A DNA stretch of 64,000 nt from Streptomyces sp. NBC_00341 (lineage in GTDB: Bacteria; Actinomycetota; Actinomycetes; Streptomycetales; Streptomycetaceae). Made by a program: the position numbers and the translations under genes. Below the pieces are notes generated by a model that worked only from the letters and a program-made list of their open reading frames with translations, had not been told where the DNA came from and ran no database searches. The first letter of the stretch is position 1; each line of letters begins with the position of its first letter. Shown here one piece after another: positions 3,644-17,593 of the stretch. The stretch is from the NCBI RefSeq assembly GCF_041435055.1, contig NZ_CP108002.1, forward strand, positions 1,240,001-1,304,000. The letters run 5' to 3'.

Positions 3644-4084
3644 TCAGATCTGCGGCGGCCGTGCCTCGTACGGCGTGGAGAGGACGACCGTGGTGCGGGT
3701 GGAGACACCGGCGAGCGAGCGGATGCGGGTCAGCAGGTGTTCAAGCTCCAGCGGGGTCGCGACACGCACCTTCAGGATGTAGTTCTCGTCACCCGCGACG
3801 CTGTGGCACGCCTCCAGCTCCGGGACTCCCGCGAGCCGCTCCGCGATGTCGTCCGGGGCGCTCGGGTCGAAGGGCTTGACCGAGATGAACGCGGTCAGCG
3901 GCAGGCCGACGGCCTCGGGGTCGACGACCGCGGCATAACCCCGGATCACCCCGCGCTGCTCCAGCCTGCGGACCCGCTGATGAACGGCCGAGGTGGACAG
4001 GCCGGTGGCCTTGCCCAGGTCGGTGTAGCTCATCCGCCCGTCCTTGACGAGCAACTCCACGATTTGACGGTCCAGCTCCTCCAT
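3644..4084 (-). CDS. Lrp/AsnC family transcriptional regulator
   Basis: A 146-aa regulator of typical family length. The N-terminal winged helix-turn-helix is visible as ELDRQIVELLVKDGRMSYTD then GLSTSAVHQRVRRLEQRG. The C-terminal RAM effector-binding domain follows (LTAFISVKPFD, then HSVAGDENYILKVRV and TRTTVVLSTPYE). ATG 4084 immediately precedes the helix-turn-helix. The gene is divergent from the small protein at 4288 and lies directly upstream of the amidohydrolase, so a local target in amino-acid-derived substrate turnover is likely by analogy. No specific operator could be identified. Confidence 0.9.
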   Translation of the reverse strand: MEELDRQIVELLVKDGRMSYTDLGKATGLSTSAVHQRVRRLEQRGVIRGYAAVVDPEAVGLPLTAFISVKPFDPSAPDDIAERLAGVPELEACHSVAGDENYILKVRVATPLELEHLLTRIRSLAGVSTRTTVVLSTPYEARPPQI

Positions 4085-4287
4085 ATGGATCAATCTATGG
4101 CCCCGGGCCCCTCCAGGCACAGCCGCGGGAGCCGCCGAAGGGCACCCCGTGGCGGTCATGTGATGAATGCCACAGGTTTACGGGTCGGTAGCAGAGCACC
4201 TCGCGGTTACGGCCGATCCACGACGGGAAGTGCTTGCTTTGGCCGAGGCCACGGCGCCTTGTCGGCCCACCGAGGGGGGAATTTCCC

Positions 4288-4689
4288 ATGCAGAACCTGA
4301 AGGTCACCGGACGTACCGAACCGGAGCCCGTTGATCCGTTCGAGGACACCGCTCCCGACGCGTACGACACGCTTGAGATGTACCGGGTCACCTGCCCGGA
4401 CTGTGCCCAGCCGATCGCCCTCCTGGCGGACGAGACCGTGCTGCCGGAGCACGCGCTGTGCCCGACTCCGTGGAACCCGTTCGTCCTCACGGTGTGCGCC
4501 GGTACCGGCCGTGCGGCGTCGAAGGCGCGGCCCGCCGACGAGTCGCCCGAGGTCCAGGAGCAGGAGACGGCCCTGCTGTTGACGCTCCCTCAGGGGCTCG
4601 ACTGGAGAATGCAGCCGTTCTCGCACGCCGGGGGCAGCGCCTCCCGCCCGTTCCGGATGCCGCACCAGGTCCGGCGCGAGGCCGCCTGA
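4288..4689 (+). CDS. Small conserved hypothetical protein with CxxC pairs
   Basis: A 133-aa soluble protein of unknown function. It has an acidic N-terminus (EPEPVDPFEDTAPDAYDTLEM), then VTCPDCAQPIALLADE and a second cysteine pair around CPTPWNPFVLTVC. The spacing is compatible with a small zinc-binding fold, though it is not a textbook zinc ribbon. The start is set by the strong GAGGGGGGA a few bases before ATG 4288. It has no signal peptide or membrane segment. Neighbours are an Lrp regulator (divergent) and another small hypothetical protein downstream, which do not suggest a role. The reading frame is supported by codon position bias. Confidence 0.7.
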   Translation: MQNLKVTGRTEPEPVDPFEDTAPDAYDTLEMYRVTCPDCAQPIALLADETVLPEHALCPTPWNPFVLTVCAGTGRAASKARPADESPEVQEQETALLLTLPQGLDWRMQPFSHAGGSASRPFRMPHQVRREAA

Positions 4690-4741
4690 CCCCGGCTGCC
4701 GCCTCGCAGGACCACGAACCGCCTGACGCGACAGAACCGCG

Positions 4742-4774
4742 CCGCACCACGACGGCCCGGCCGGCGTGGTGCGG
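4742..4774. terminator. Hairpin downstream of the CxxC small protein
   Basis: A 10-bp stem, CCGCACCACG paired with CGTGGTGCGG, with a 13-base loop lies about 50 bases after the stop at 4689. It lacks a U-tract, as is usual for Streptomyces terminators. Placement supports a transcription stop. Confidence 0.55.
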
Positions 4775-4881
4775 ACGGCGAACGGGACCGCTCCGGCGCC
4801 GGAGCCGCCCGGAGACCTGGCGAACGGGCGCCCGAATCGGCCGGACAGTGACCCGGCCCGGCCCGCCGGCGTTGGCCTGGC

Positions 4882-5181
4882 ATGACCCTGCTGCATTCCA
4901 CGGCCGGCCCCGGTCGCCGCCGTCTCGCCGTTCCGGCCTCCGAAGAATCGGTTCCGCAGCCCGGATCCCCCACGGCGTCCCAGTCCGAGCCGCCGCGCCA
5001 GGTGCCCCACTCGACCGATCCCCCCATCTACCGGGCGATGCTCCGGTACTGGGAGGGCACCGGGAGGACCATGCCGGGCCGCCATGACCAGGAGTGGAAC
5101 CGGATCATGACGATGCCCGTGTGGTCGGACCGGCCGCTACGGGTCAGTGCGTCTCAGGACCCGCGAGGTGGCGGGCGATGA
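4882..5181 (+). CDS. Small hypothetical protein (99 aa)
   Basis: A possible 99-aa protein. The first half is low complexity. The second half, PIYRAMLRYWEGTGRTMPGR then DQEWNRIM, has a mixed, structured composition unlike the Arg/Pro-rich shadow frames of GC-rich DNA, and this kind of short segment recurs in small Streptomyces proteins of unknown role. Its last 38 bases overlap the end of the convergent acyl-CoA dehydrogenase gene, and no strong ribosome site precedes ATG 4882. A start further in, just before the conserved second half, is not available. Real coding status is uncertain. Confidence 0.45.
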   Translation: MTLLHSTAGPGRRRLAVPASEESVPQPGSPTASQSEPPRQVPHSTDPPIYRAMLRYWEGTGRTMPGRHDQEWNRIMTMPVWSDRPLRVSASQDPRGGGR

Positions 5182-6316
5182 CCATGCGCTGGATCTGGTT
5201 GGTGCCCTCGACGATCTGCAGCACCTTGGCCTCGCGCATGAGCCGCTCGACGGGGAAGTCCAGCGTGTAGCCGTACCCGCCGAGGACCTGGACGGCGTCG
5301 ATGGTGACCCGCATCGCGGCGTCGGTGCAGAACAGCTTGGCCATGGCCGCCTGCCGCGAGAACGGGCTGCCCGCGTCGCGCAGCCTGGCCGCCTCCAGGT
5401 AGAGCGCCCGGCCCGCCTCGATCTGGGTGGCCATGTCCGCGAGCATGAACCGCAGCCCCTGGAAGTCCGCGATGGGGCGGCCGAACTGCTTGCGCCCGGT
5501 GGCGTAGGCGACGGCCTCGTCCAACGCCGCCTGGGCCACACCGATGGCGCACGCGGCGATGCCGAGCCGCCCTGAATCGAGTGCGGACAGCGCGATCGCG
5601 AAGCCCTGCCCCTCCTCACCGATCCGGCGCGCGTCCGGGACCCGGACGCCGTCGAAGTGGATTTGGGCGGTGGGCGAGCCCTTCATGCCCATCTTCTTCT
5701 CGGGGACGGCCGCGCTCAGCCCGTCGGCGTCGCCGGGAACGAGGAAGGCGGTGATTCCGCGGGCGCCCTCGGCGCCGGTACGGGCCAGCACGGTGTAGAA
5801 GTCCGCGACGCCGCCATGGGTGATCCACGCCTTGGTGCCGGTGATGACCCAGCTGTCCCCGTCCCGCACGGCCTTCGTCCGCAGCGAGGCGGCGTCCGAG
5901 CCCGAGGCGGGCTCCGAGAGGCAGTAGGCGCCCAGCAGGCCGCCCGCGAGCATGCCCGGGAGGTGTTCGGCCTGCTGCTCCTTGGTGCCGTATCCGGCGA
6001 CCGCGTGGCAGGCGAGGGAGTGGACGCTCACGCCGAGCCCGACGGTGAGGCGGGCGGAGCTGAGCTCTTCGAGGACCTGGAGGTACACCTCGTACGGCTG
6101 GTCGCCGCCGCCGTGGGCGGAGTCGTACGGCAGGCCGAGCAGGCCGGAGCCGGAGAGCAGCGTGAAGACCTCGCGCGGGAACCGGCCGGCGTCCTCCTCC
6201 TCGGCCGCCCGGGGCGCGATCTCCCGCTGGGCGATGTCGCGGACGAGCGCGATGAGCTGCCTGGATTCCTCTGTGGGCAGACGGCGTTCCACTGACTGCG
6301 GGGCACGGTCGGGCAT
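5144..6316 (-). CDS. Acyl-CoA dehydrogenase
   Basis: A 390-aa FAD-dependent acyl-CoA dehydrogenase that catalyses the alpha,beta-dehydrogenation step of fatty-acyl or branched-acyl-CoA degradation. Seen in order: the alpha-helical N-domain (EESRQLIALVRDIAQREIAP); the mid beta-domain signature AYCLSEPASGSDAASL and the FAD-contacting WITHGG; the C-terminal helical domain with RKQFGRPIADFQ, QVLGGYGYTLDFPVER and the catalytic-base region LQIVEGTNQIQR, with Glu in the usual position. Length is normal. ATG 6316 has a good AGGAGAG ribosome site; an in-frame extension upstream is Arg/Pro-rich. The gene is divergent from the chitinase and convergent with the small gene at 4882. Chain-length specificity cannot be read from sequence. 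Confidence 0.9.
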   Translation of the reverse strand: MPDRAPQSVERRLPTEESRQLIALVRDIAQREIAPRAAEEEDAGRFPREVFTLLSGSGLLGLPYDSAHGGGDQPYEVYLQVLEELSSARLTVGLGVSVHSLACHAVAGYGTKEQQAEHLPGMLAGGLLGAYCLSEPASGSDAASLRTKAVRDGDSWVITGTKAWITHGGVADFYTVLARTGAEGARGITAFLVPGDADGLSAAVPEKKMGMKGSPTAQIHFDGVRVPDARRIGEEGQGFAIALSALDSGRLGIAACAIGVAQAALDEAVAYATGRKQFGRPIADFQGLRFMLADMATQIEAGRALYLEAARLRDAGSPFSRQAAMAKLFCTDAAMRVTIDAVQVLGGYGYTLDFPVERLMREAKVLQIVEGTNQIQRMVIARHLAGPETH

Positions 6317-6719: not shown

Positions 6720-7994
<1,275 letters not shown>

Positions 7995-8009
7995 CCTCGG
8001 TGCGGCAGG

Positions 8010-8056
8010 CATGACGGTGGGCGGGGAGCCGGGCGGGCTCCCCGCCCACCGTCATG
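8010..8056. terminator. Strong hairpin between chitinase and the SCO1431-like gene
   Basis: A perfect 21-bp stem (8010-8030 paired with 8036-8056) with a 5-base loop lies between the convergent chitinase and small membrane protein genes, so it can stop transcription from both sides. Confidence 0.85.
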
Positions 8057-8068
8057 TCCGCCGGCTTC

Positions 8069-8224
8069 TTACATCAGACCGATCTGCGTGACGAACATGG
8101 CGATGACGACGACGAGCGTCCAGCCCAGGAGGTTCTCCAGCAGCTTGGCGCGGTCCCCGGGCCCGCCGGTCCGCGTACGGCGGCGGGCGGTAGTGGTGGT
8201 GGTTGCGGCGGCAGTCGCGGTCAT
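8069..8224 (-). CDS. SCO1431-family small membrane protein
   Basis: A 51-aa protein with a Thr/Ala/Arg-rich N-terminus (ATTTTTARRRTRTGG) and one C-terminal transmembrane helix (LLGWTLVVVIAMFVTQIGLM). It matches the small family named after S. coelicolor SCO1431; its function is unknown. ATG 8224 is the only start giving the family length; a weak GAACGAG lies upstream. The position next to a GH18 chitinase fits the presumed ancestral order chitinase, this gene, C39-like peptidase, which the inserted element between 8.45 and 16.37 kb now interrupts. Confidence 0.75.
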   Translation of the reverse strand: MTATAAATTTTTARRRTRTGGPGDRAKLLENLLGWTLVVVIAMFVTQIGLM

Positions 8225-8340
8225 GGCATCTCGTTCGGTCGGCCGGCAGTCGGTGTCCCCCGAGGACCCGACCACAGTGCCAGCCGGACCGGCCCCCGCG
8301 GTAGAGAGCTGCGTCACTCCCCCGGGGGCGCCGGAGCGCG

Positions 8341-8482
8341 TCAAAGGATGCCGACAGCCGCCAGAGCCCGGCGTTGGGCGGGGGTCGGGTGCGCGGGGAA
8401 GTGCAGGTAGCAGACGCCGCCTGTGCCGGAGACCACACTGCCACTCGCGTTGTAGCGCTTGGTGCGGAGCCAGGTCGCCTCC
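8341..8482 (-). pseudogene. Displaced 3' end of a C39-like peptidase gene
   Basis: The last ~47 codons read EATWLRTKRYNASG, SGTGGVCYLHFP, TPAQRRALAAVGIL and stop. This parallels the C-terminus of the intact peptidase at 16226-17593 (ETIWLRTKRYDANG, SGTGGVCYVYWP, APAQHRALRSLGLL). Similarity starts abruptly at the Glu codon near 8482; upstream DNA on the same strand has none. There is no start codon, signal peptide or catalytic part. The fragment looks like the original chromosomal 3' end of the peptidase gene, pushed 7.9 kb away when an element integrated within it. The alternative is a remnant of a separate paralogue. Confidence 0.75.
8452..8482 (+). repeat. Left copy of the putative integration core
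   Basis: 31 bases matching 16337-16367 at 28 positions in direct orientation, including the identical 18-mer CGCTTGGTGCGGAGCCAG (8456-8473). It lies in the peptidase-derived WLRTKR codons. Confidence 0.65.
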
Positions 8483-8638
8483 AGATGGAAGGGCGCCGCA
8501 TATCGTGCGACGCCCTTCCGCGGTTGAAGACGTTGATCGGGCGGTTGTTCCACGTCAGCTGCACGGGGTCCAGTCGTTTTCGCCGAGAATCCAACGCTAA
8601 GCCGTGCGGCATCCTCTGATCTGGGCTGGTCCGTACCG

Positions 8639-8870
8639 GTGCGGCCCATGAATCCGGCCGCCCAGACACTCGGCGGGTTCGTCGGCGCGCATCTGGCAGG
8701 CAGCGGGCAGCTGAACCGCTACCTCACCCCCGGCACGAAGCTGACGGCGGTCTCGCTCGCCCGCACCATATGCGCGCATCGAGGTGGCACAGGTCGCCGC
8801 CGGCCACCCGCCCCGCCGAGCCCGGACCACACCACACCACACCTGACGAATCATCAGATACCCGAGTGAA
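8639..8870 (+). pseudogene. Possible TcpC-like conjugal transfer protein fragment
   Basis: The frame from about 8639 reads NPAAQTLGGFVGAHLAGSG then QLNRYLTPGTKLTAVS. The sense then continues in another frame as PYARIEVAQVAAGHPPRRA, implying a frameshift near 8760. A pattern of an extracellular 'FL.AYLAG.G.L.RYL.PG' helix followed by a beta strand is typical of the periplasmic domain of TcpC-like conjugation proteins in actinobacterial integrative elements. There is no membrane anchor, start or ribosome site. The assignment rests on residue pattern only. Confidence 0.35.
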
Positions 8871-9125
8871 TACCATCGGTAGCCCCAAACGCCCGCAGCA
8901 CGAATTCGTATGGCGGGGGCGGAGTATCAGGAGTCCGGCGTGACGGTTTCGCATCGGCGCCGAGGCCACCGCCTGGTACGAGGACGGTGGTGTCCGGATC
9001 GGGCCCCCGCCCACGATCGGGTGATTGCGGTGAGGGCTTCGCAGTACCGGGTTCTCTGAATCCGGCGGTTCCACCTGGTCGGTGGGGCGGCCCCGGTGGA
9101 ACTCCTTCTCCGAGAGGCACGATCG

Positions 9126-9407
9126 ATGGCCAACCTGAAGCACTCCTGTACTGCGGCGGCAGTGGTAACGGCCGTATCGATCGGGGCCGGTGTCCTCGCC
9201 GTCACCCCGGCCGGCGCCGCTGACCGGGTCGCCATCGAGAACGTGGCGGACTAGCGGTTCCTCACCGCGGACGGCGCTGTGCTGCTCACGGGGCAGTACG
9301 GCGGTGCTGACCAGGACAGGGTGCTGATCTCGCCTCCGGGTGCACCGGCCGGGGTCCAAGACCTGAACGAGGAGAAGTGGCGCCCCGGGATTCCTGCCCG
9401 GGGCTGA
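9126..9407 (+). pseudogene. Secreted beta-trefoil-like protein interrupted by TAG
   Basis: ATG 9126 opens a clear signal peptide: MANLKHSCTAAAVVTAVSIG, a hydrophobic core, then AVTPAGAADRVAIENVAD and TAG at 9252-9254. The same frame continues without shift as RFLTADGAVLLTGQYGGADQ, ending in WRPGIPARG and TGA at 9405-9407. The continuation resembles one blade of a ricin-type or Kunitz-like beta-trefoil ('IENV.DGRFLTADG'), where Gly or another small residue would be expected at the TAG. A full trefoil needs about 120-140 residues, so the 3' part is also missing. It is most simply a decaying gene on the element. A functional 42-aa product or readthrough is less likely. Confidence 0.55.
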
Positions 9408-9617
9408 GCAAGCGTCCTGCGCTGCCAGGAGAGTGGCGGGTCCGGGTGCCGCAGCGGGGTGGCGGCTCGCGTGAGGCTGTGAGCCCCCCCGGGGGGTGTG
9501 GTGCAGGCGGGATGGACAGACTCAGGGACGGGGCAGACCGCGGGAGAGCCCCCTGGACGGTGCTGGCGGTGATGCCACCGGCACCATCTCTCGCCCGGCA
9601 TCATCTCTGGAGGGCTC

Positions 9618-10790
9618 ATGAAGATCGTGCTCGCCTATTCAGGAGGTCTGGACACCTCCGTGGCCCTGCACTGGCTCAAGAAGCGGTATGACGCCGAGAT
9701 CATCGCGTTCTGCGCGGACATCGGGCAGATCGAGTCGCTGGACACGATCGAGGAACGGGCGCTGCGCACCGGCGCCTCGAAGGTGTACGTCGAGCCGCTC
9801 ACCGACCGTTTCCTGAAGGACTTCGCGCTGCCCGCGCTGCGGGCACACGCCCGCTACGAGAACAAGTACCTGGTGGCCGCACCGCTCTCACGTCCGCTGA
9901 TTGCCCAGCGCATGGTCGAGATCGCCCATGCGGAGAACGCTGACGCGGTCGCCCACGGGGCGACGGGCAAGGGCAACGACCAGGTGCGCTTCTTCACCGG
10001 TGTCACCGCTCTCGACCCCGCTCTGCGAGTCCTCGCACCGGTCATCGACTGGGACCTGACCACCCGGGAGTCAGAGCTCGCTTACGCCCGCGAACACGCC
10101 ATCCAAGTGCCGGTCACCCCCGACAACCCCTACAGCATCGACACCAACATCTGGGGAACCAGCATCGAGTGCGGCGAACTGGACGACATCAGCCGGCCGC
10201 CGCCTCCTCGCGCCTGGCAGCTCACGGCAGACCCCAGGACGGCCCCGGACCGGCCGGAGCGGGTCACCATCGGATTCGAGTCCGGGACCCCCGTCGCCCT
10301 CGATGGCGAGAGGCTCCAGCTACCCGAGCTCGTGCACCGGCTCAACGCCGTCGTCGCACGCCACGCGGTGGGCCGCGTCGACATCGTCGAGAACCGCATC
10401 GTCGGATTCAAGACGCGCGGCATCTACGAGGCACCGGCCGCAACCGTGCTGATGACCGCGCACGAGGAGCTCGAAGCGATCGTCCTCGACCGCGAGACGC
10501 TCCACCACAAGCAGTCCATGGCCCTGCGCTACGCCGAACTCGTCTACTACGGCTACTGGTTCTCCGACCTGCGCCGCGCCCTGGACGCCTTCGTCTCCAG
10601 CCTCCAGACCGCCGTGACCGGCGACATCACCCTGGAGCTGTACAAGGGCTCGCACACCGTCATCGCCCGGCAATCCCCGAACTCCCGCTACAGCGGGTCC
10701 CTGGCCACCTACGAAACCGGTGACACCTTCAACCACCAGGCAGGCGCCGCCTTCGCCTACGTATGGTCCCTCCCCCTGGCCCGGCCATGA
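9618..10790 (+). CDS. argG: Argininosuccinate synthase paralogue
   Basis: A 390-aa ATP-dependent ligase joining citrulline and aspartate in the arginine pathway, or a relative acting on another ureido or carboxyl substrate. Seen: the N-type ATP pyrophosphatase loop AYSGGLDTSVALHW at about residues 6-19, the family signature GATGKGNDQVRF near 115-126, PYSIDTNIWGTSIE and the C-terminal KGSHTVIARQSPNSRYS. Both family signatures are intact, so catalysis is plausible. It does not resemble the usual Streptomyces housekeeping ArgG start (longer first helix, different substrate loop), and no other arginine gene is nearby. Placement on the relic element beside a kinase-like gene suggests acquired cargo, perhaps for specialised metabolism. 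ATG 9618 has a GGAGG ribosome site. Confidence 0.85.
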   Translation: MKIVLAYSGGLDTSVALHWLKKRYDAEIIAFCADIGQIESLDTIEERALRTGASKVYVEPLTDRFLKDFALPALRAHARYENKYLVAAPLSRPLIAQRMVEIAHAENADAVAHGATGKGNDQVRFFTGVTALDPALRVLAPVIDWDLTTRESELAYAREHAIQVPVTPDNPYSIDTNIWGTSIECGELDDISRPPPPRAWQLTADPRTAPDRPERVTIGFESGTPVALDGERLQLPELVHRLNAVVARHAVGRVDIVENRIVGFKTRGIYEAPAATVLMTAHEELEAIVLDRETLHHKQSMALRYAELVYYGYWFSDLRRALDAFVSSLQTAVTGDITLELYKGSHTVIARQSPNSRYSGSLATYETGDTFNHQAGAAFAYVWSLPLARP

Positions 10791-10931
10791 CCGGAAGAAC
10801 ACCACACAGAGCGGAGTCCCGGGCATCCCCCACCCACCTCGGCGCGAATGCCGGCCCACCCACCCCGCTGGGTGCAGTCCGGCCGCCCCGGAGCAGTGCC
10901 GCATGCCACCAACGCACAGGAGGTTCACAGA

Positions 10932-11783
10932 ATGGGGCAGTTTCCGTCCGGACACGCAGAGGCTCTCGCAGTGGTCGAGGCCCGCTGCGGAAGCGGCTTC
11001 AGGTTGCGGGAGGTGACGTCCCGCCCGGGCGCGGTGGTGTGGGAGGCGGCGGGTACCGGCGGGAGGTTCGCCGTGAAGATCGGCACCAGCGACGGCGCGG
11101 CAGCCGTGTCACGGGAGACGGAGGTTCTCCGGGCGTTGGGATGGTCCGGGCATCTGCTCGCCTCGGGTCGCGGGGCGGACAGTGCGTGGCTGATGGCGCG
11201 GTGGTTCGAGGGGCCGTCCACGTGGGATGCCTTCGCCCTGTTTCGGGAGAACGGCACCGGGCAGCGGGCGGGGCTCGGCGCGGCGGCGGAGTTGTGTGAA
11301 ACGGTCGCCGGTCTGCACGGTCTGGGCTGGGTCCATGCCGATCTCCAGCCGGACCACGGGATCCACACCCCCGGCGGTGTCCGTCTGATCGACCTGGCCT
11401 GGAGCTGGCGGGAAGGGATGCGGCCGCCACCCGTGACGGGGGTGGGTATCGACCATCTCGTGCCGCCGGAACTGGCCCTGCGCGGTGCGGGCGATATGCC
11501 CCTGGACGCGGGCAGGGCAGCCGACGTCTACACCCTGGCCGCCACCCTGTGGACCTGCGTCACCGGAACCTGGCCCCTGGACTACCGGGCTGCCGGCATC
11601 ACACCGGAGGACCTGACCTCGGACCAGCTCCGCGCGCAGATCGCCACCGGCCGCATCCCCCTGCGGACCGAGACACCATGGCCCGAACTCCAAACAGTCC
11701 TGCAGCAGGCCCTGCTGAGCAGGCCCGGGGACCGGCCCACAGCCCGGGACCTCGCCCAGACCCTGACCCGCCTGGCACCCTGA
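10932..11783 (+). CDS. Protein-kinase-like phosphotransferase
   Basis: A 283-aa single-domain kinase-fold protein. Seen: FAVKI with the ATP-binding Lys near residue 49; a Glu of the alpha-C helix (SRETEVLRAL); the catalytic loop as WVHADLQPDH (about 133-142) in place of HRDLKPxN; the metal site as LIDLAWS (about 152-158) in place of DFG. The HADLQPxH loop keeps the catalytic Asp but resembles small-molecule or peptide kinases more than Ser/Thr protein kinases. It has no membrane or sensor domain. The start is fixed by the strong AGGAGG 8 bases before ATG 10932. It follows argG by 141 bases on the same strand and probably acts in the same pathway. Substrate unknown. Confidence 0.75.
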   Translation: MGQFPSGHAEALAVVEARCGSGFRLREVTSRPGAVVWEAAGTGGRFAVKIGTSDGAAAVSRETEVLRALGWSGHLLASGRGADSAWLMARWFEGPSTWDAFALFRENGTGQRAGLGAAAELCETVAGLHGLGWVHADLQPDHGIHTPGGVRLIDLAWSWREGMRPPPVTGVGIDHLVPPELALRGAGDMPLDAGRAADVYTLAATLWTCVTGTWPLDYRAAGITPEDLTSDQLRAQIATGRIPLRTETPWPELQTVLQQALLSRPGDRPTARDLAQTLTRLAP

Positions 11784-11797
11784 CCCTGTCGGGTCCG

Positions 11798-12350
11798 TCA
11801 CCCACGCTCCTGGCGATGTGCCTGCTGGTAGAGCCGGGTGAACAGCGGGTCCATGGTGCGACCGGAGCGGTAGACGGTCCCGAACCGCTCCTCGTAGGCG
11901 GCGAACCGGTCGGGGGCGTCGTGGAGGAAGAGCACATCGTGCAGGGCCATCCAGCGCAGCGCCAGCATCGGGACCGGGGAGCGGGACACCGGAAACCGGG
12001 GGTTGCGCGCGGCGCCCTGGTCGCCCCGCGAATGGAACTGGCCGAGCATCATCCCCTCCTGGGCCAGCGGCGTCCTGACCTTCTCCTGCACGTGGTCCAG
12101 GAGCTCCTCGTCGGCCTGAGGAAGGTCGGGCAGGACGGCAACCACGGCGTGCAGAGCACGGTTGGTCGTCGGCCAGCAACCGCCCCGCAGTACCTCCACC
12201 ATGGCGTCGACCGTTGACAGCAGACCGTCCAGGTCCACACTGCCGGGGAACACCCGCGCCCGTACTCCGTCGGCGCGCAGGGCAGGAGCCATGAACGGGC
12301 TCCGGCATCCCGGACAGCGCCATGTCTGGAGAGCGGGCCGAGCGAGATGC
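11798..12350 (-). pseudogene. DUF6875-like protein with broken 5' end
   Basis: The 3' part is a well-formed frame: SPFMAPALRADGVRARVFPG, GGCWPTTNRALHAVVAVLPD, then the conserved block SPVPMLALRWMALHDVLFLH and ERFGTVYRSGRTMDPLFTRL. This matches the DUF6875 pattern. The family normally begins ~40 residues earlier with a 'GR.GAVCPF' segment. Here SRHGAV lies in another frame just upstream (near 12320), separated by an apparent insertion of about 11 bases, so the original N-terminus seems frameshifted. A truncated 164-aa product from ATG 12292 is possible. The gene is convergent with the kinase-like gene, 14 bases apart. DUF6875 proteins have no assigned activity. Confidence 0.5.
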
Positions 12351-12377
12351 GTGGCTGCTGTTCCCCTCTCCCGGCGG

Positions 12378-12414
12378 CAGGGGGTCCTCCGCTCACCGCG
12401 CGGAGGACCCCCTG
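12378..12414. terminator. 15-bp hairpin between the DUF6875 remnant and the Rrf2 gene
   Basis: Arms 12378-12392 and 12400-12414 pair perfectly around a 7-base loop. It lies upstream of both divergently oriented genes, so it more probably isolates the rrf2 promoter from incoming transcription than ends a gene that is still complete. Confidence 0.6.
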
Positions 12415-12589
12415 CCCGTATTTCAGGGAGGCCGGCGTCGTCGGGCGAAGGCCGAGGCGGACCGCCCTCGCCATCCACGGTGCCCTGCCCTCTTGGAGGG
12501 CGCTGCTGGTCAGTCGAGTGCGGGCGTAGCGACGGCTTACGCGATCCTGTTGGGGTGGCCGGCAGGGACTGCGCTTGCCCGCCTTCGTC

Positions 12590-12606
12590 GTAACAATTAC
12601 AGTTAC
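12590..12606 (+). promoter_or_regulatory. Operator copy 1 (GTAAC-N7-GTTAC), rrf2 promoter
   Basis: GTAACAATTACAGTTAC, inverted arms GTAAC/GTTAC, 21 bases before the GTG start of the Rrf2 regulator. The same element occurs at 13100 and 14506. Position implies autoregulation. Confidence 0.75.
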
Positions 12607-12627
12607 GCCAGAGAGGGAGGAGGTCCC

Positions 12628-13059
12628 GTGAGTGCCAACAGCAAGCTGACCGTCGCCGTCCACGCGCTGGCATGGGTGGGGCTCTACCAGAGCCGTGGGA
12701 ATGAAGTCGCCACCTCGGAACAGATCGCGGAGAGCGCGAACACCAACCCCGTGGTGATCCGACGCCTGCTCGGTCAACTCCGCAGCGCAGGGCTCGTCCA
12801 CGCGCGGCGAGGCGCCGGCGCGGGGTGGCTGATGAGCCGCGAACTCGCCGACATCACCGTGCTGGACGTGTACGACGCGATCGAGTCCGGCCCCTTGTTC
12901 GACATGCACCGTGCTGAGCCCAATCAGGAATGCGTCGTGGGCGCCGGCATCCAGCCCGCTCTCTCGAACGTCTACAGCCGCCTGGACCAGACGCTTCGCG
13001 GCGAGCTGGCCCGGACGACGTTGGCCGACGTCCTGCGTGACACGCTTTCCGCCTCCTGA
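12628..13059 (+). CDS. Rrf2 family transcriptional regulator
   Basis: A 143-aa Rrf2-type regulator. The N-terminal winged helix reads SKLTVAVHALAWVGLYQ, then SEQIAESANTNPVVIRRLLGQLRSAGLV, followed by the wing ARRGAGAGWLMSR and ADITVLDVYDAIE, all diagnostic of the family. It holds a single cysteine (NQEC, about residue 103), not the three of iron-sulfur members IscR and NsrR, so it more likely senses through one thiol or a ligand. GTG 12628 has a strong GGAGGAGG site. A palindromic GTAAC-N7-GTTAC site lies directly upstream and recurs before two downstream genes, so the regulator probably controls itself and the following operon. It is part of the relic element cargo. Confidence 0.85.
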   Translation: MSANSKLTVAVHALAWVGLYQSRGNEVATSEQIAESANTNPVVIRRLLGQLRSAGLVHARRGAGAGWLMSRELADITVLDVYDAIESGPLFDMHRAEPNQECVVGAGIQPALSNVYSRLDQTLRGELARTTLADVLRDTLSAS

Positions 13060-13099
13060 CCACCGTGCGACACGCACGGTGTGTCCTCAGGCCTTAAAT

Positions 13100-13116
13100 G
13101 TAACCAATATAGCTAC
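13100..13116 (+). promoter_or_regulatory. Operator copy 2, upstream of the monooxygenase
   Basis: GTAACCAATATAGCTAC, with one change in the right arm (GCTAC for GTTAC). It lies 47 bases before ATG 13163 in an AT-rich pocket. Shared with 12590 and 14506. Confidence 0.7.
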
Positions 13117-13162
13117 AACCACCTCGCTCGAAGCGTCACGCCGATTGTCAGGAGAGAAGACG

Positions 13163-13528
13163 ATGACCGAACCCACCAGCAGGAACCTCGCCACGCAGGT
13201 CGTGTTCAACGCCTACTACCGCGTGCACCCGGACGACCGGCAGAAGTTCATCGACGCGGTCGTTCCCCATATCAGCTTCACCGCCGAGCTGCCGGGGTGC
13301 GTGTTCTACGTGTTCGCCGCCGACCTGCTCGACCCCAACACCTTCCATCTCTCCGAGGGCTGGGCCGACCAGGCCGCCATCGACCGCCACAACGCCACCG
13401 AACCCTTCCAGAAGGCCCTGGGGGACGTGATGACCACCGTCAGGATCCTGGACCACCAAGGCCAGCGCTACGAGATCGCAGACCAGGGCGCCGGGGACCC
13501 GCCCGGCGGGGTGGAACTCGCGGGCTGA
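13163..13528 (+). CDS. Antibiotic biosynthesis monooxygenase (ABM) domain protein
   Basis: A 121-aa single ABM-fold protein. Such dimeric alpha+beta barrel proteins include YgiN-type quinol monooxygenases and polyketide oxygenases. Seen: VVFNAYYRVHPDDRQKFIDA (first strand and helix), ELPGCVFYVFAADLLDPNTF (edge strands), LSEGWADQAAIDRHNATEPF (the usual 'E.W....AL..H' signature) and a closing strand TTVRIL. Length is typical. GGAGAG precedes ATG 13163. With an Rrf2-type operator upstream and crotonase, SDR and SnoaL-like genes downstream, a role in modifying or detoxifying a quinone or other small electrophile is plausible but inferred. Confidence 0.8.
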   Translation: MTEPTSRNLATQVVFNAYYRVHPDDRQKFIDAVVPHISFTAELPGCVFYVFAADLLDPNTFHLSEGWADQAAIDRHNATEPFQKALGDVMTTVRILDHQGQRYEIADQGAGDPPGGVELAG

Positions 13529-13644
13529 ACACTGGAGCGCCGACGACCGCGCACCGCTGCCTGTCCAGCAGTAGCCGGCCGCTCGTTCCGATCGCGCACC
13601 CGGCACGGCATCACTCAATGAAGCCCCGCACGGAGGGAACGACC

Positions 13645-14400
13645 ATGGAAACCGTACAGTTCGAACAGAGGGACGGGGTCGGTCACATCGTCCTCGCCAA
13701 CCCGCCCGACCAGCAGATCGGCGTTCGCTTCACCGAGGACCTTGCCACTGCGGTGCACCAGGCCGGCGAGAGCGACATCAAAGCTCTGGTCGTGCGGGCG
13801 GAGGGGCCCAACTTCGGAACCGGCGGGGACGTACCCGATTGGCCGGGGAAAAGCACTGACTGGTTCCGCACCTTCATTGCCGAGGTCAACCAGTCGTACG
13901 CCGCCATCGAAGCGCTGCGCGTGCCGACCATCGCCGCGGTCAGGGGCAAGACGATCGGCGGCCACTACGAACTCGCCCTGCGCTGCGATCTGATCGTGGC
14001 CGCCCACGATGCGACCTTCAGCTGGGTGGAGGCAACCGTAGGGATGGCCCCTTTGGCCGGAGGGGTACAGCGACTGGCCGACCGCATCGGCCGCGGGCGT
14101 GCGGCGCAGCACGTTCTGCTGAGCGAGACTCTCACCGGCGTCGAGGCGGGCCACATCGGTCTGGCCGGCCGCGTCGTACCCCCGAGCACCGTCGACGCCA
14201 CCGCGCAGGCCATTGCCGAGCAGGTCGCCGGCGGCTCGAAGCCGGCGAACGCCGCCATCCAGTCTCTCCTCAAGGCATGGACGGGCGGCGGCACCCCGGG
14301 CGCCGACACGATGATGCTCGACCTCACCATGGACCTGTTCGCCACCCCGCACGCCCAGGCCGCATTCCGCAAGATCGAAGAGGCCGCTCGATTCGCCTGA
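13645..14400 (+). CDS. Enoyl-CoA hydratase/isomerase family protein
   Basis: A 251-aa crotonase-fold protein. Seen: GVGHIVLANPPDQQIG, the oxyanion-hole region TGGDVPDW and the core GGHYELALRCDLIVAAHDAT leading to FSWVEATVGMAPLAGG. Both acidic positions used by true hydratases are Glu here (in HYELAL and WVEATV), so hydratase chemistry is possible. The usual substrate loop 'FsaGaDl' is changed to FGTGGDVPD, which leaves CoA-substrate identity open. The weak site GGAGGGAACGACC precedes ATG 13645. It lies 116 bases after the ABM gene and probably shares its transcript; the next operator copy lies just downstream. Confidence 0.8.
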   Translation: METVQFEQRDGVGHIVLANPPDQQIGVRFTEDLATAVHQAGESDIKALVVRAEGPNFGTGGDVPDWPGKSTDWFRTFIAEVNQSYAAIEALRVPTIAAVRGKTIGGHYELALRCDLIVAAHDATFSWVEATVGMAPLAGGVQRLADRIGRGRAAQHVLLSETLTGVEAGHIGLAGRVVPPSTVDATAQAIAEQVAGGSKPANAAIQSLLKAWTGGGTPGADTMMLDLTMDLFATPHAQAAFRKIEEAARFA

Positions 14401-14505
14401 CCCTGCCTCTCGGGGAGCTTCACCTCGCCCGTCAGGCGATCCAGACGATTCGGCTCTGACTCGCCCGCTCTCGTACGCGGCAAGGCGCTTCCCGTACCCG
14501 AAAAC

Positions 14506-14522
14506 GTAACCAAACCAGTTAC
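14506..14522 (+). promoter_or_regulatory. Operator copy 3, upstream of the SDR gene
   Basis: GTAACCAAACCAGTTAC with perfect inverted arms, 21 bases before the chosen SDR start. The flank ACGCC after the right arm is also shared with copy 1 at 12590. Confidence 0.75.
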
Positions 14523-14543
14523 GCCAAAGATATGGAGAATCTG

Positions 14544-15299
14544 ATGGGCAAGCTGGACGACAAGACCGCCCTGGTGACCGGGGCTTCCGCCGGTATCGGC
14601 CTGGCCATCGCCCGCCGGTTCGCCACCGAGGGAGCGACCGTCTACCTGACCGGCCGCCGCAAGGCCGAGCTGGACGCTGCCGTCGAGCAGGTCGGCAGTC
14701 ACGCGATCGGCATCCAAAGCGACGTGTCGCAACTCGACGACCTCGACCGGCTGTTCGCGGAGATCGCCGAGCGCAGCGGCCGTCTGGACATCGTGGTGGC
14801 CAACGCCGGCGTCGGTGACTTCGGCCCGCTCGGCGCGATCACCGAGGAAGCGTACGAGCGCGCCACCTCCATCAACCTCAAGGGCACCGTATTCACCGTG
14901 CAGAAGGCGCTGCCGCTGCTGTCGGCCGGCGCCTCGGTGGTCCTGCTCTCCTCCAGCGCTGCCCTGCGCGGCGCCCCGGGCCTGGGTATCTATGCCGCGA
15001 CCAAGGCCGCCATCCGCAGCCTCGCCCGCACCTGGGCCGCCGAACTCGCCGGGCGCGGCATCCGCGTCAACGCCCTCACCCCCGGCCCCGTCGCCACCCC
15101 CGGCGGCGACGGACTGCGGGCCGCTTTCCCGCAGGAAGAACAGATCACCGCAGCAGCCGGGCCGGCCGCGCCGACGCCGCTCGGCCGGGCGGGCAGCCCC
15201 GACGAGGTCGCCGCCACCGCCCTGTACCTGGCGGGCGACCAGAGCTCCTTCACCACCGGCGCGGAGCTGTACGTCGACGGCGGCGCGACCCAGCTCTAG
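14544..15299 (+). CDS. Short-chain dehydrogenase/reductase
   Basis: A 251-aa classical SDR. Seen: the Rossmann motif TGASAGIG (about residues 12-19), NAGVGDFG, the catalytic Ser in LLSSSAALRG and YAATK with the Tyr/Lys pair, then PGPVATPG and the C-terminal GAELYVDGGATQL. TGRR after the second strand suggests an NADPH-type cofactor site, as basic residues there favour the phosphate. ATG 14544 is preferred over ATG 14532 because GGAGA lies 6 bases before it and family members start MGKLxxKTALVTG. Its own GTAAC-N7-GTTAC operator lies directly upstream. Confidence 0.88.
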   Translation: MGKLDDKTALVTGASAGIGLAIARRFATEGATVYLTGRRKAELDAAVEQVGSHAIGIQSDVSQLDDLDRLFAEIAERSGRLDIVVANAGVGDFGPLGAITEEAYERATSINLKGTVFTVQKALPLLSAGASVVLLSSSAALRGAPGLGIYAATKAAIRSLARTWAAELAGRGIRVNALTPGPVATPGGDGLRAAFPQEEQITAAAGPAAPTPLGRAGSPDEVAATALYLAGDQSSFTTGAELYVDGGATQL

Positions 15300-15343
15300 A
15301 CCGAGACCACGAGCTCGCCACCCCACGGATCAGGAGGACTGAG

Positions 15344-15763
15344 ATGTCACCCGACAACGAGAAGATCATCCGCAACGCCTACCAACTCGCCGAGGACAGG
15401 GACGTCGCCGGATGGATCGCGGCCTTCACCGATGACGGGACCTTCACCGACGAATCCATCCCGCGCACCTACCGCGGCGCGGAAGAGCTGGGCAAGACGG
15501 TCGAGGTCTACGCGAAGGCGTTCCCCGACATGCACCGTGAGCTCGGCCGGTTCTACGTGACCGGTGACGTGGTCATCGTGCAACTGAGCTTGCAGGGCAC
15601 CCACCTCGGTCCGCTCGAACTGCCCTCGGGAACCGTCCCGCCGACCGGCAAACGCATGGATGCCCCGTGCTGCGACGTGTTCGAGCTGACCGACGGCAAG
15701 ATCAAGCGCTTCGACTGCTACGCGGAAGGATCCGTCGTCGCTGCCCAACTCGGCCTGACCTGA
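15344..15763 (+). CDS. SnoaL-like/ester cyclase family protein
   Basis: A 139-aa single NTF2-fold protein of the SnoaL-like group, whose members include polyketide cyclases, limonene-epoxide hydrolase relatives and many with no known enzyme activity. Seen: EKIIRNAYQLAEDRDVAGWI (first helix), FTDDGTFTDESIP with two conserved acids, YAKAFPDMHRELGRFYVTGD and the end strand PCCDVFELTDGKIKRFDCYA. The ribosome site CAGGAGGA precedes ATG 15344, 44 bases after the SDR stop, so the two are almost surely cotranscribed. A terminator hairpin follows. It is the last gene of the Rrf2-controlled cargo. Confidence 0.8.
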   Translation: MSPDNEKIIRNAYQLAEDRDVAGWIAAFTDDGTFTDESIPRTYRGAEELGKTVEVYAKAFPDMHRELGRFYVTGDVVIVQLSLQGTHLGPLELPSGTVPPTGKRMDAPCCDVFELTDGKIKRFDCYAEGSVVAAQLGLT

Positions 15764-15780
15764 ACCCAGGACGGACGTGA

Positions 15781-15817
15781 GCCTTCAAGCCGAGGGATGG
15801 GGCTTCGGCTTGAAGGC
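15781..15817 (+). terminator. Terminator of the Rrf2-controlled operon
   Basis: A 13-bp perfect stem, GCCTTCAAGCCGA paired with TCGGCTTGAAGGC, loop 11 bases, starts 18 bases after the SnoaL-like stop. The following ~295 bases to 16111 hold no recognisable gene, only low-content open frames that may be decayed integrase sequence. Confidence 0.75.
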
Positions 15818-16111
15818 TTGCGTGATGGGGATCACGACCACCGCGACGCCAGAGTCAGGTGTAAAGGCGCACGGATGGTTCACCTGGCGACTGCGAGCAG
15901 GCTCTTGGCGAATGCCCGCAGGCGAAGGACCCCGCCCAGAGCTCGCCGCAGGCCGCATGTCGCCCAGCCGGTAGTTCAGAGAACCGAATTAACCCACACG
16001 TAAGACCCTGATCATGCACGATCGCGTTGAAAGGCGAGTGCTCCGGATCCGTCGTCAGTGACGACGGTGAACCCTTCACCCGGAGCCATGCGGACGGCGC
16101 CGTCGAGGCGA

Positions 16112-16240
16112 GTCCTCGGACATCGCTCGATCAAGGTCACGGTCGACCAGTACGGCCACCTCACACCGGACGGCCATGAGCGCTGCCGCCAGGTGGTCGA
16201 GGTGGCCGTGTGGGGCCCTACATGCTCACAGCAGGCCTAG
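16112..16240 (+). pseudogene. Tyrosine recombinase (integrase) C-terminal fragment
   Basis: About 42 codons read VLGHRSIKVTVDQYGHL, TPDGHERCRQVVE, a short tail and TAG. LGH followed by the nucleophile Tyr in 'T.D.YGHL' is the C-terminal catalytic end of phage-type integrases. The preceding Arg-His-x-x-Arg part is gone, so the fragment cannot act. It overlaps the 3' end of the convergent peptidase gene by 15 bases. An integrase ending against its target gene is the standard layout at the attachment site of an integrated element. Confidence 0.75.
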
Positions 16241-17593
16241 CGACCTCAGAGCGCGGTGCTGAGCGGGTGCTGGGTCAGACGGCCAGTAGACGTAACAGAC
16301 CCCACCCGTACCACTTTTGACCTGCCCGTTCGCGTCGTAACGCTTGGTGCGGAGCCAGATCGTCTCCCACTCGTGCCGCTTGTAGACGTGGCGGACCGCC
16401 TCGTCGTCCGGGGACGCCGGGTCGTTGGCGATCACGTCGCCGTCCGCGGTGAAGCCGATCACCGTCATCAGGTGACCGGAGGTGCCGTAGCCCGCGCCCG
16501 TCAGCTCCTCCTTGAGGAACGACTGAGACGTTATGGCCGGAATCCCCGCCCGGACCAGGGTCTCCAGGTCCTTCAGCGAGCCCAGCCGGGTCACCACGGC
16601 GCTCATGTCCTCGTACGTGGCGGCGTAGGCGGCGTTGAACGGCCAGTTGCCGCAGCCCTCGTACTGGTTGTCGTAGGTGAACCGCGCCGCGTGGCAGACC
16701 TGTGGGTCCGCCAGCCCCGGCTTGACCCAGGCGAGGTCCGCCGCGCTGGGGTGGCGGCCCCAGTACTCGATGATCATCTGCGAGGAGGTGGGACTGCACC
16801 ACGCCTCGCCGCCGTTGTCGTACTCGGGGTACTGGCCCGCGTGCACGTTCTGCGAGTAGCGCGGCACCCGCAGCTCCCGGACCAGTCCGGGGACGGAGGC
16901 GGGCACGGTGAAGCGGTCGGGGATGTCGGAGGCCATCGCGCCCAGACGCCACACCGTGGGGGTGAGCCGGGTGCCCGGGGTGCGATACAGGGTCAGCCGC
17001 AGCCGGTAGGACGCGAGCCGCAGGCCGCTCGCCGCGTCGTCCACCGAGAAGGTGTCGGTCCAGATGGAGCTCTTGCCGTCGCTCTGGCCGTCGACGGACG
17101 TACGGCGGATGTCGCCGTCGCCGTCGCCGGACGCCCAGCGCCCCATGACGTACCAGGGGGTGTCCGTGCCGTCCGAGTAGGTGCCCCGGAGCTCGATCTG
17201 GATCCAGGTGCCGGCCGGCGTGTGCGCGTTCCAGGAGGCGATCACCTCGGTGGCCGGGACGGCGGAGCGGTGGACGGGTGAGGTCCAGGTCGCGTACTCC
17301 CAGGCCGCCGTCGTACCCGTGTGCGGGTCGGTGTAGTCGGTACGTCCCAGCGGGTGGCCGATCACCAGGCCCGCCCGGCGCCCCGCGACGGCGCGGGTCC
17401 CGGCGCCGGAACCGCAGCGCCAGTCGGTGTACGTACTCCAGGAGTGGTTGTCCACGGGAGAGGCTGCCGCCGAAGGTGCGTGACGCGGGACACGGGAGGG
17501 AGCGGCGGAAGCGGTGGACGACACCGCTCCGGCTCCGGCCGCTGCCGCGATGGCGGCGGCGAGTACGGTTCGGCGTGAGGTCGGACTGGGCAT
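16226..17593 (-). CDS. Tat-exported C39-like cysteine peptidase family protein
   Basis: A 455-aa exported protein. The Tat signal (SRRTVLAAAIAAAAGAGAV, about residues 6-24) ends at STASAAPS. The middle part (50-235) is a beta-rich domain. The C-terminal part is a papain-fold peptidase_C39_2-like domain with catalytic Cys in GGEAWCSPTSSQM (near 266), His in SGHLMTVIG (near 374) and the third residue in ANDPAS (near 391). It likely acts on peptides or peptidoglycan outside the membrane. ATG 17593 sets the Tat motif at the right distance. A good DasR-type box lies about 115 bases upstream. The last ~45 codons lie beyond a putative integration core and may come from the inserted element, which kept the frame open. 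Confidence 0.8.
   Translation of the reverse strand: MPSPTSRRTVLAAAIAAAAGAGAVSSTASAAPSRVPRHAPSAAASPVDNHSWSTYTDWRCGSGAGTRAVAGRRAGLVIGHPLGRTDYTDPHTGTTAAWEYATWTSPVHRSAVPATEVIASWNAHTPAGTWIQIELRGTYSDGTDTPWYVMGRWASGDGDGDIRRTSVDGQSDGKSSIWTDTFSVDDAASGLRLASYRLRLTLYRTPGTRLTPTVWRLGAMASDIPDRFTVPASVPGLVRELRVPRYSQNVHAGQYPEYDNGGEAWCSPTSSQMIIEYWGRHPSAADLAWVKPGLADPQVCHAARFTYDNQYEGCGNWPFNAAYAATYEDMSAVVTRLGSLKDLETLVRAGIPAITSQSFLKEELTGAGYGTSGHLMTVIGFTADGDVIANDPASPDDEAVRHVYKRHEWETIWLRTKRYDANGQVKSGTGGVCYVYWPSDPAPAQHRALRSLGLL
16337..16367 (+). repeat. Right copy of the putative integration core
   Basis: Direct copy of 8452-8482 (28 of 31 identical; identical 18-mer at 16341-16358), inside the intact peptidase gene at the WLRTKR codons. 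Identity to the left copy stops at 16367, on the peptidase N-terminal side. Confidence 0.65.

Follow-up and report, generated by a model that had tools for sequence, protein, structure and literature searches.

We analyzed a 64,000-nucleotide stretch of Streptomyces sp. NBC_00341 (assembly GCF_041435055.1, contig NZ_CP108002.1, positions 1,240,001 to 1,304,000 of the forward strand), hereafter called the window. The interval 8452..16367 of the window is very probably a decayed integrative element lying in the 3' end of a gene for a C39-like peptidase, and it appears to belong to a family that includes conjugative-looking members. Sequence comparison established the junctions, the arrangement in insert-free relatives, the swap of the peptidase ending at the window, the recurrence at the same codons, the integrase family, and the decay. 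Sampled genomes and fetched loci are referred to by G and L numbers, respectively.

As an earlier note on this DNA had reported, a 31-bp core occurs as a direct repeat at 8452..8482 and 16337..16367, with 28 of 31 positions identical and 18 of these in a row. Both copies read on the minus strand; the first is the far, attL-like junction, supported also by alignments to insert-free loci, and the second is the attR-like junction on the integrase side. A repeat finder extended the pair to 8445-8482 and 16330-16367 (34/38 identical). Exact occurrences of the 18-base block in the window were limited to these two places, no third core copy was found in the window at up to 2 mismatches, and none of 100 shuffles contained two sites for the block at 2 or fewer mismatches. 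When the two 1-kb regions were compared, the best-matching 38-base segment had 34 identical positions; 100 Markov resamples gave at most 28. Both copies lie at the same codons of the peptidase gene (WLRTKRY; PF13529), where the note had placed them, and direct-repeat attachment cores flank the insert as expected of an element integrated by a tyrosine recombinase. A tRNA target was rejected; the only tRNA call in the window (11128-11227, of unassigned type) lies inside a kinase-like gene and at neither junction.

The intact peptidase gene occupies 16226..17593 on the minus strand (PF13529, E value 9.6e-26; about 455 codons), with its stop codon at 16226-16228. Its last ~43 codons (~16226-16358, minus strand) were supplied by the element, as they resemble element-bearing and not insert-free loci. 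The left copy (8341..8482, minus strand), judged by peptidase similarity and by comparison of endings, is the displaced 3' end of the original host gene. It stays open as far as a stop codon of its own at 8341 and matches residues 400-456 of the peptidase only (E value 2e-14), whereas the 40 nt upstream of the core showed 25% identity to the intact gene, the level of chance. The left copy is thus peptidase-like only towards its stop codon, as the note had described, and is not the second full-length paralogue that the note had named as counter-evidence.

Beside the displaced end, the window keeps ~39 bp of the element left end (8483..8521, minus strand), an inverted-repeat block common to relatives; similarity runs until 8521 in G352 and G342 and until 8514 in G203. 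A hairpin with a 13-pair stem is kept at this left end in 8 sequences, with 89% of cells paired compared with 44-66% when the alignment was slid. We claim no RNA structure here because covariation was within the range of shuffles (one pair changed on both sides, a score equalled or exceeded in 241 of 500 shuffles). Two motifs, both patterns noted post hoc, were seen near the junctions: a TGCATGTTTG-like motif ~50-60 nt outside the core in 12 of 21 displaced-end rows, and GCATGT right behind the peptidase stop codon in 12 of 21 element-bearing loci compared with 0 of 9 insert-free loci.

Fifteen fetched loci were classed by us as insert-free. When they were aligned with the left flank of the window, the alignment ended exactly at 8482 in six, at 8473 in eight, and at 8326 in one, and extended past 8482 in none. 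The target site is uninterrupted in these relatives, and the check proposed in the note, when run, found endings resembling 8341-8482. In the window the flank consists of a small membrane-protein gene (8069..8224, minus strand; termed SCO1431-like in the note), by synteny the normal neighbour of the peptidase 3' end, and a GH18 chitinase gene (6720..7994, plus strand; Pfam and synteny). The peptidase, small membrane-protein, and chitinase genes lie together, no more than 0.8 kb apart, in G019, G297, and G309. The small membrane-protein gene was located ~80-255 bp from the peptidase end in 9 of the 15 loci; it was not close or not detected in the other six (L057, L061, L064, L065, L068, and L071), and the endings of L057 and L061 resemble the element type in part. 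The possibility that the insert genes belong to the core of related genomes was not borne out: no close match to them was found at 62 other fetched loci, where family-level matches (30-33%) to the short-chain dehydrogenase (SDR) or the enoyl-CoA hydratase occurred at five.

To compare the peptidase endings, we used 20 occupied loci (21 displaced-end rows; G122, G180, and G230 are outside this set) and the 15 insert-free loci. Over the 102 nt behind the core, the intact ending of the window had a mean identity of 74% to the 19 other occupied loci and 63% to the insert-free loci, whereas the displaced end showed the reverse, with 61% to occupied and 75% to insert-free loci. The 60 nt ahead of the core showed no such difference (76% to occupied and 77% to insert-free loci). 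This pattern upholds the claim that the peptidase now ends in element-supplied sequence; restoration of the target gene in this way is seen at the window, although it is invisible in some occupied genomes. In a tree of 74 endings, from which L045 (a duplicate of the L044 stretch) and L081 (whose anchor was two codons too early) were excluded, the displaced end was nearest to insert-free genes and the intact ending nearest to integrase-remnant loci. The labels "occupied" and "no insert" were clustered in the tree, with 0 of 500 shuffles as low for each.

Among intact endings, the best match of the displaced end was insert-free G309 (85%), compared with 60% to the intact ending of the window itself. 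This bears on the idea that tandem duplication of part of the peptidase gene produced the left fragment, the integrase tail being there by coincidence. Such a partial duplication would account for two copies that are both peptidase sequence and equally oriented, but it was rejected because the window's own gene resembles the displaced end less closely than an insert-free relative does; the alignments to insert-free loci contradict it as well. Moreover, 20 genomes show the pattern, always in one orientation and at the same few codons, sequence is common beyond the core, and an integrase often lies beside the gene. We give duplication next to no chance.

Of the 392 genomes sampled from the genus, 384 gave a peptidase match and 23 contained a truncated second peptidase end. 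Second matches in G065, G094, G100, G186, G370, and G395 and the third match of G294 were classed as paralogues and not as displaced ends, and the second match G215:C10 was placed in neither class. In 20 of the 23 genomes the displaced end shares contig and strand with the intact gene and follows downstream of it; inserts span from ~3 kb (G273) to ~114 kb (G295), and the intact peptidase frame is at least 474 aa in all 23. An integrase C-terminus was found no more than 60 bp from the peptidase end in at least 23 genomes, and at least 30 of the 392 genomes have a displaced end or an adjacent integrase; both numbers are lower bounds, since adjacency was judged only where the place of the peptidase was listed. 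Elements pile up at the site: G004 has two displaced ends in a row and the ~112-kb insert of G114 is followed directly by a second integrase. Beside this second integrase is a group II intron reverse transcriptase (L079:17962-19383). Two further observations concern single genomes. G122 (L077, C1:320000-335000) has an integrase tail and a peptidase ending at ~7924-8172, far from the intact peptidase and on the opposite strand, which may be either an element end at a different place or one shifted by rearrangement. In G005 (L032, 9605-10968) the peptidase is split into two overlapping frames by a real frameshift or a sequencing error.

The integrase of the window is reduced to a stub of 42 residues (16112..16240, plus strand), recognized by similarity to full-length relatives as the end of a tyrosine integrase. 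It overlaps the stop end of the peptidase gene by 15 nt in the tail-to-tail position that the note had described, and a cognate integrase thus lies beside one attachment site, in the window as a stub only. Thirty-five stub residues aligned with a full-length relative at 74% identity. The stub keeps what we take to be the catalytic His of GHRS and Tyr of QYGHL and lacks the upstream Arg and the HxxR region. No other match to the integrase was found at an E value of 1e-8 in the genome of the window (14 of the 19 initial candidates were scored), and for this reason the window's copy should be unable to move unaided.

Among the 23 adjacent integrases, six have open frames of at least 371 aa. Full-length integrases were seen in G088, G114 (two), G180, G215, and G295; these proteins are PF00589 tyrosine recombinases of 371-386 aa (417 aa in G295 from the first start codon). 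We use the names S. triticirhizae for G295, S. albospinus for G215, and S. sedi for G180 on the basis of an identical 599-base stretch. The integrase and peptidase genes overlap on opposite strands by 23 or 53 nt in four of these five genomes, and in G114 an integrase and the intact peptidase abut with 4 bp between them. At 14 integrase loci of named genomes, the peptidase gene was tail-to-tail in 11, three of which are G295, G180, and G215 again; the integrase is broken in two of the 11 (L104 and L106). One more of the 14 has the ending only, and the other two lack a nearby peptidase. These arrangements show a close packing of the peptidase ending and the integrase 3' end. In L093 (S. inhibens, 4001-5200), the integrase, a peptidase ending alone, and an apparent element left end are joined directly, which looks like an attP-like junction compatible with a circle or a tandem array. 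The same-family integrases (63-67% identity) of L096 and L101 have no peptidase within the fetched stretch.

Of four inserts of ~110 kb, those of G295 and G215 each carry a TraG/TraD-type coupling protein. A MobA/VirD2-type relaxase domain is encoded in the G295 insert, with a 49% homologue in G215, and a VirB4-like protein in the G215 insert, with a 72% homologue in G295. A TrwC-type relaxase was inside the insert in none of 10 genomes, the sole match, in G373, being on a different contig. Because of these coupling protein, relaxase, and VirB4-like genes, the two inserts look like conjugative elements. The inserts of G088, G114, and G215 have in common a block with EccD and multi-domain FtsK/EccC-like proteins (L079 in G114, L117-L118 in G088, and L089 and L121 in G215); the block also contains DUF6177, DUF6507, a large family-less gene, and an Imm49 immunity gene or homologue. 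The FtsK-family proteins of these three inserts look like EccC, being multi-domain and beside EccD or a homologue, and in G215 the type VII secretion-like block occurs together with the conjugation genes. We conclude that the integrase family includes probable conjugative elements and that the window's copy is a worn-down member of this family. Defence-like genes were seen 1-10 kb inside the insert left end in two genomes: in G215 (L089:4489-14565) two genes best matched HmaB and HmaC and lie next to a helicase, for which PbeA was the best match and HmaA matched too, and in G088 (L034:14911-16242) a Shedu (SduA) gene was found.

A prophage remnant, with an integrase from a temperate phage and not from a conjugative element, was also considered. 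The full-length integrase does match phage integrase families (phrog_1, E value 2.6e-51), and low-identity matches to it occur in 762 phage records. However, the best phage match reached 30% identity and viral contigs 20-23% (in a search sensitive to close relatives only), and on these values a phage origin was rejected. In addition, no structural family was recognized among the eight cargo genes of the window (Pfam and PHROGs, with uncalled stretches outside the scan), and two full-sized relatives carry conjugation genes. The PHROGs comparison covered the window cargo and the integrase, and not the genes of the large inserts. We regard a phage source as highly improbable. Plasmid relatives of the integrase were rejected as well, with no more than 30% identity among the 25 matches listed.

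We infer the recombination chemistry, the past mobility, and the order of losses as follows. A tyrosine integrase would recombine a core of ~20-35 bp in the chromosome with the same core on a circular element, through a single crossover inside the core. The core falls within the (EN)IWLRTKRY(D/N)A codons, close to where the host peptidase gene ends, and on the element it would be followed by the element's own 43-codon peptidase ending, abutting or overlapping the 3' end of the opposite-strand integrase. Integration would then leave an intact chimeric peptidase gene beside the integrase, with the ending of the host gene moved to the opposite end of the insert. In the window, decay has since worn the integrase down to a stub and would have removed any transfer genes, leaving cargo, part of which may be a later arrival.

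Several observations weigh against reading the interval as a worn member of a family with conjugative members. The VirB4 model matches are far below the curated cut-offs, and of the 10 element-bearing genomes searched, only 2 had a member of the coupling-protein family within the insert; the inserts of G088 and G114 have no coupling protein despite their equal size. Seven of the genomes with an adjacent integrase are without a detectable displaced end. Support is weak for most forks of the ending tree, and clustering of the label "displaced end" is marginal (36 of the 500 shuffles gave a value as low). The swap is not visible everywhere, with identities between the intact and the displaced ending of 94% (G322), 86% (G415), and 84% (G173). 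Finally, no transfer or replication gene was recognized by Pfam and PHROGs among the eight cargo genes of the window, and with the integrase a stub, it is the two junctions that tie the window to the family. Relaxase, coupling protein, and VirB4-like ATPase, the genes that mark integrative and conjugative elements with a type IV secretion system, were likewise not found among these eight genes.

The cargo, assigned by Pfam, comprises an argininosuccinate synthase paralogue (9618..10790, plus strand), a protein-kinase-like gene (10935..11783, plus strand; E value 1.2e-5 and 25.3 bits, under the cut-off of 31.7), a DUF6875 gene (11798..12673, minus strand), an Rrf2-family regulator gene (12628..13059, plus strand), an ABM-domain (antibiotic biosynthesis monooxygenase-like) gene (13163..13528, plus strand), an enoyl-CoA hydratase-like gene (13645..14400, plus strand), an SDR gene (14532..15299, plus strand), and a SnoaL-like gene (15344..15763, plus strand). 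The argininosuccinate synthase (ArgG) is an additional copy in this genome; it is 94% identical to one on a different contig of G019 and 45% identical to the next-best copy of its own genome. Relatives of the SDR and Rrf2 genes are adjacent in G003 and G023. Some part of a 3.2-kb operon was matched in 60 of 61 genomes, and no other place spans the operon among the matches listed, only single-gene matches being considered. The G+C content of the insert was 68.7%, compared with 71-72% in the flanks.

These data touch on a variant of the decayed-element reading, a composite history in which the element inserted, was later gutted, and received its present cargo through unrelated later events. G203, whose peptidase sequence is close, shares both junctions but has other cargo (kinase, GH43, lysozyme-like, and esterase genes), so that the cargo may have changed after insertion. 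G000 and G203 may share one ancestral insertion; their displaced ends cluster, but the hosts would do so too. The relatives of ArgG, SDR, and Rrf2 found elsewhere and the lower G+C content also fit such a history, whereas different cargo at one site is expected anyway, no insertion-sequence gene was found among the eight cargo genes scanned (uncalled parts of the insert lie outside the scan), and the third core copy that was sought is lacking. We hold this variant to be a serious possibility, though somewhat short of even. As to the ~7.9 kb that the note had called acquired cargo, the insertion is supported, but the cargo is possibly not the original load of the element and several steps may have been involved. 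The decayed integrative element remains our preferred reading.

We further examined coding constraint on the peptidase endings by the ratio of nonsynonymous to synonymous polymorphism (pN/pS). For the 17 codons behind the core, the ratio was 0.29 among the 19 element-type and 0.27 among the 14 insert-free endings; it was 0.54 and 0.65 for the last 17 codons and 0.50 and 0.30 for the 20 codons ahead of the core, respectively, and these figures carry no significance test. Because the groups were chosen by us and the pairs are non-independent, the ratios only suggest constraint. A bolder view is that the last ~43 residues of the peptidase form a genus-wide exchange module, in which integration swaps the end of a secreted enzyme for the element's version, and the ending is kept under coding constraint on the element while overlapping the opposite-strand integrase in most intact elements. 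We consider this view rather unlikely at present.

Integrative elements in protein genes have been described in Streptomyces. PAISt and its relatives in S. turgidiscabies, S. scabies, and S. acidiscabies insert at the 3' end of bacA (PMC4057263), and a survey of a Streptomyces rhizosphere population lists 14 insertion sites in protein genes, 36 in tRNA genes, and 1 intergenic site (PMC9513070). The remark in the note that a protein-gene target would be notable for Streptomyces was consequently too strong, as such targets have already been reported (PMC4057263, PMC9513070). PAISt resembles the element studied here in having a tyrosine recombinase at one edge, a protein-gene 3' end as its target, a duplicated gene end of ~140 bp, a modular or tandem arrangement, and an eroded integrase in some hosts (PMC4057263). 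It differs in its target, which is bacA and not a C39-like peptidase gene, and in its core, an 8-bp palindrome TTCATGAA (PMC4057263) of which the window has 0 copies. IntSt is reportedly unrecognized by Pfam (PMC4057263), whereas the integrase studied here matches PF00589. The rhizosphere elements share integrase-mediated insertion, accretion at one site, and decay to a truncated integrase and cargo between repeats, but they are mostly actinomycete integrative and conjugative elements (AICEs) of the TraB type, and the sites named in the accessible text are tRNA genes, rlmN, and a glycosyltransferase gene (PMC9513070).

The AICEs pSAM2 and SLP1 of Streptomyces likewise have a tyrosine integrase and insert site-specifically in gene 3' ends; however, AICEs with tyrosine recombinases are described as mostly targeting tRNA genes and using an FtsK-like transfer protein (PMC3218068). 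The element of the window has a protein-gene target, and FtsK-like TraB/TraSA was absent among its scanned cargo. The Samy phage also uses a conserved protein-gene attachment site in the outer Streptomyces chromosome, but with a serine integrase and a radical-SAM target gene (PMC12924846). Neither the target gene nor the integrase family of the present element was found in the literature searched, which did not extend to most subscription journals or the supplement of PMC9513070.

This element adds a widely shared integration site and an integrase family to the known protein-gene sites of Streptomyces. Here the site is found 1.25 Mb along a contig of 8.8 Mb. The wide presence of the peptidase, the position of the site, and the kept reading frame would make it useful to integration vectors, provided that the integrase functions as proposed. 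The gradation between elements of full size and scars that are almost erased provides material for studying the decay of integrative elements. The locus also appears to be a case of mobile DNA exchanging the end of a secreted enzyme. If the doubtful exchange-module view were true, the element would preserve the function of its target while repeatedly re-diversifying the C-terminus of the enzyme.

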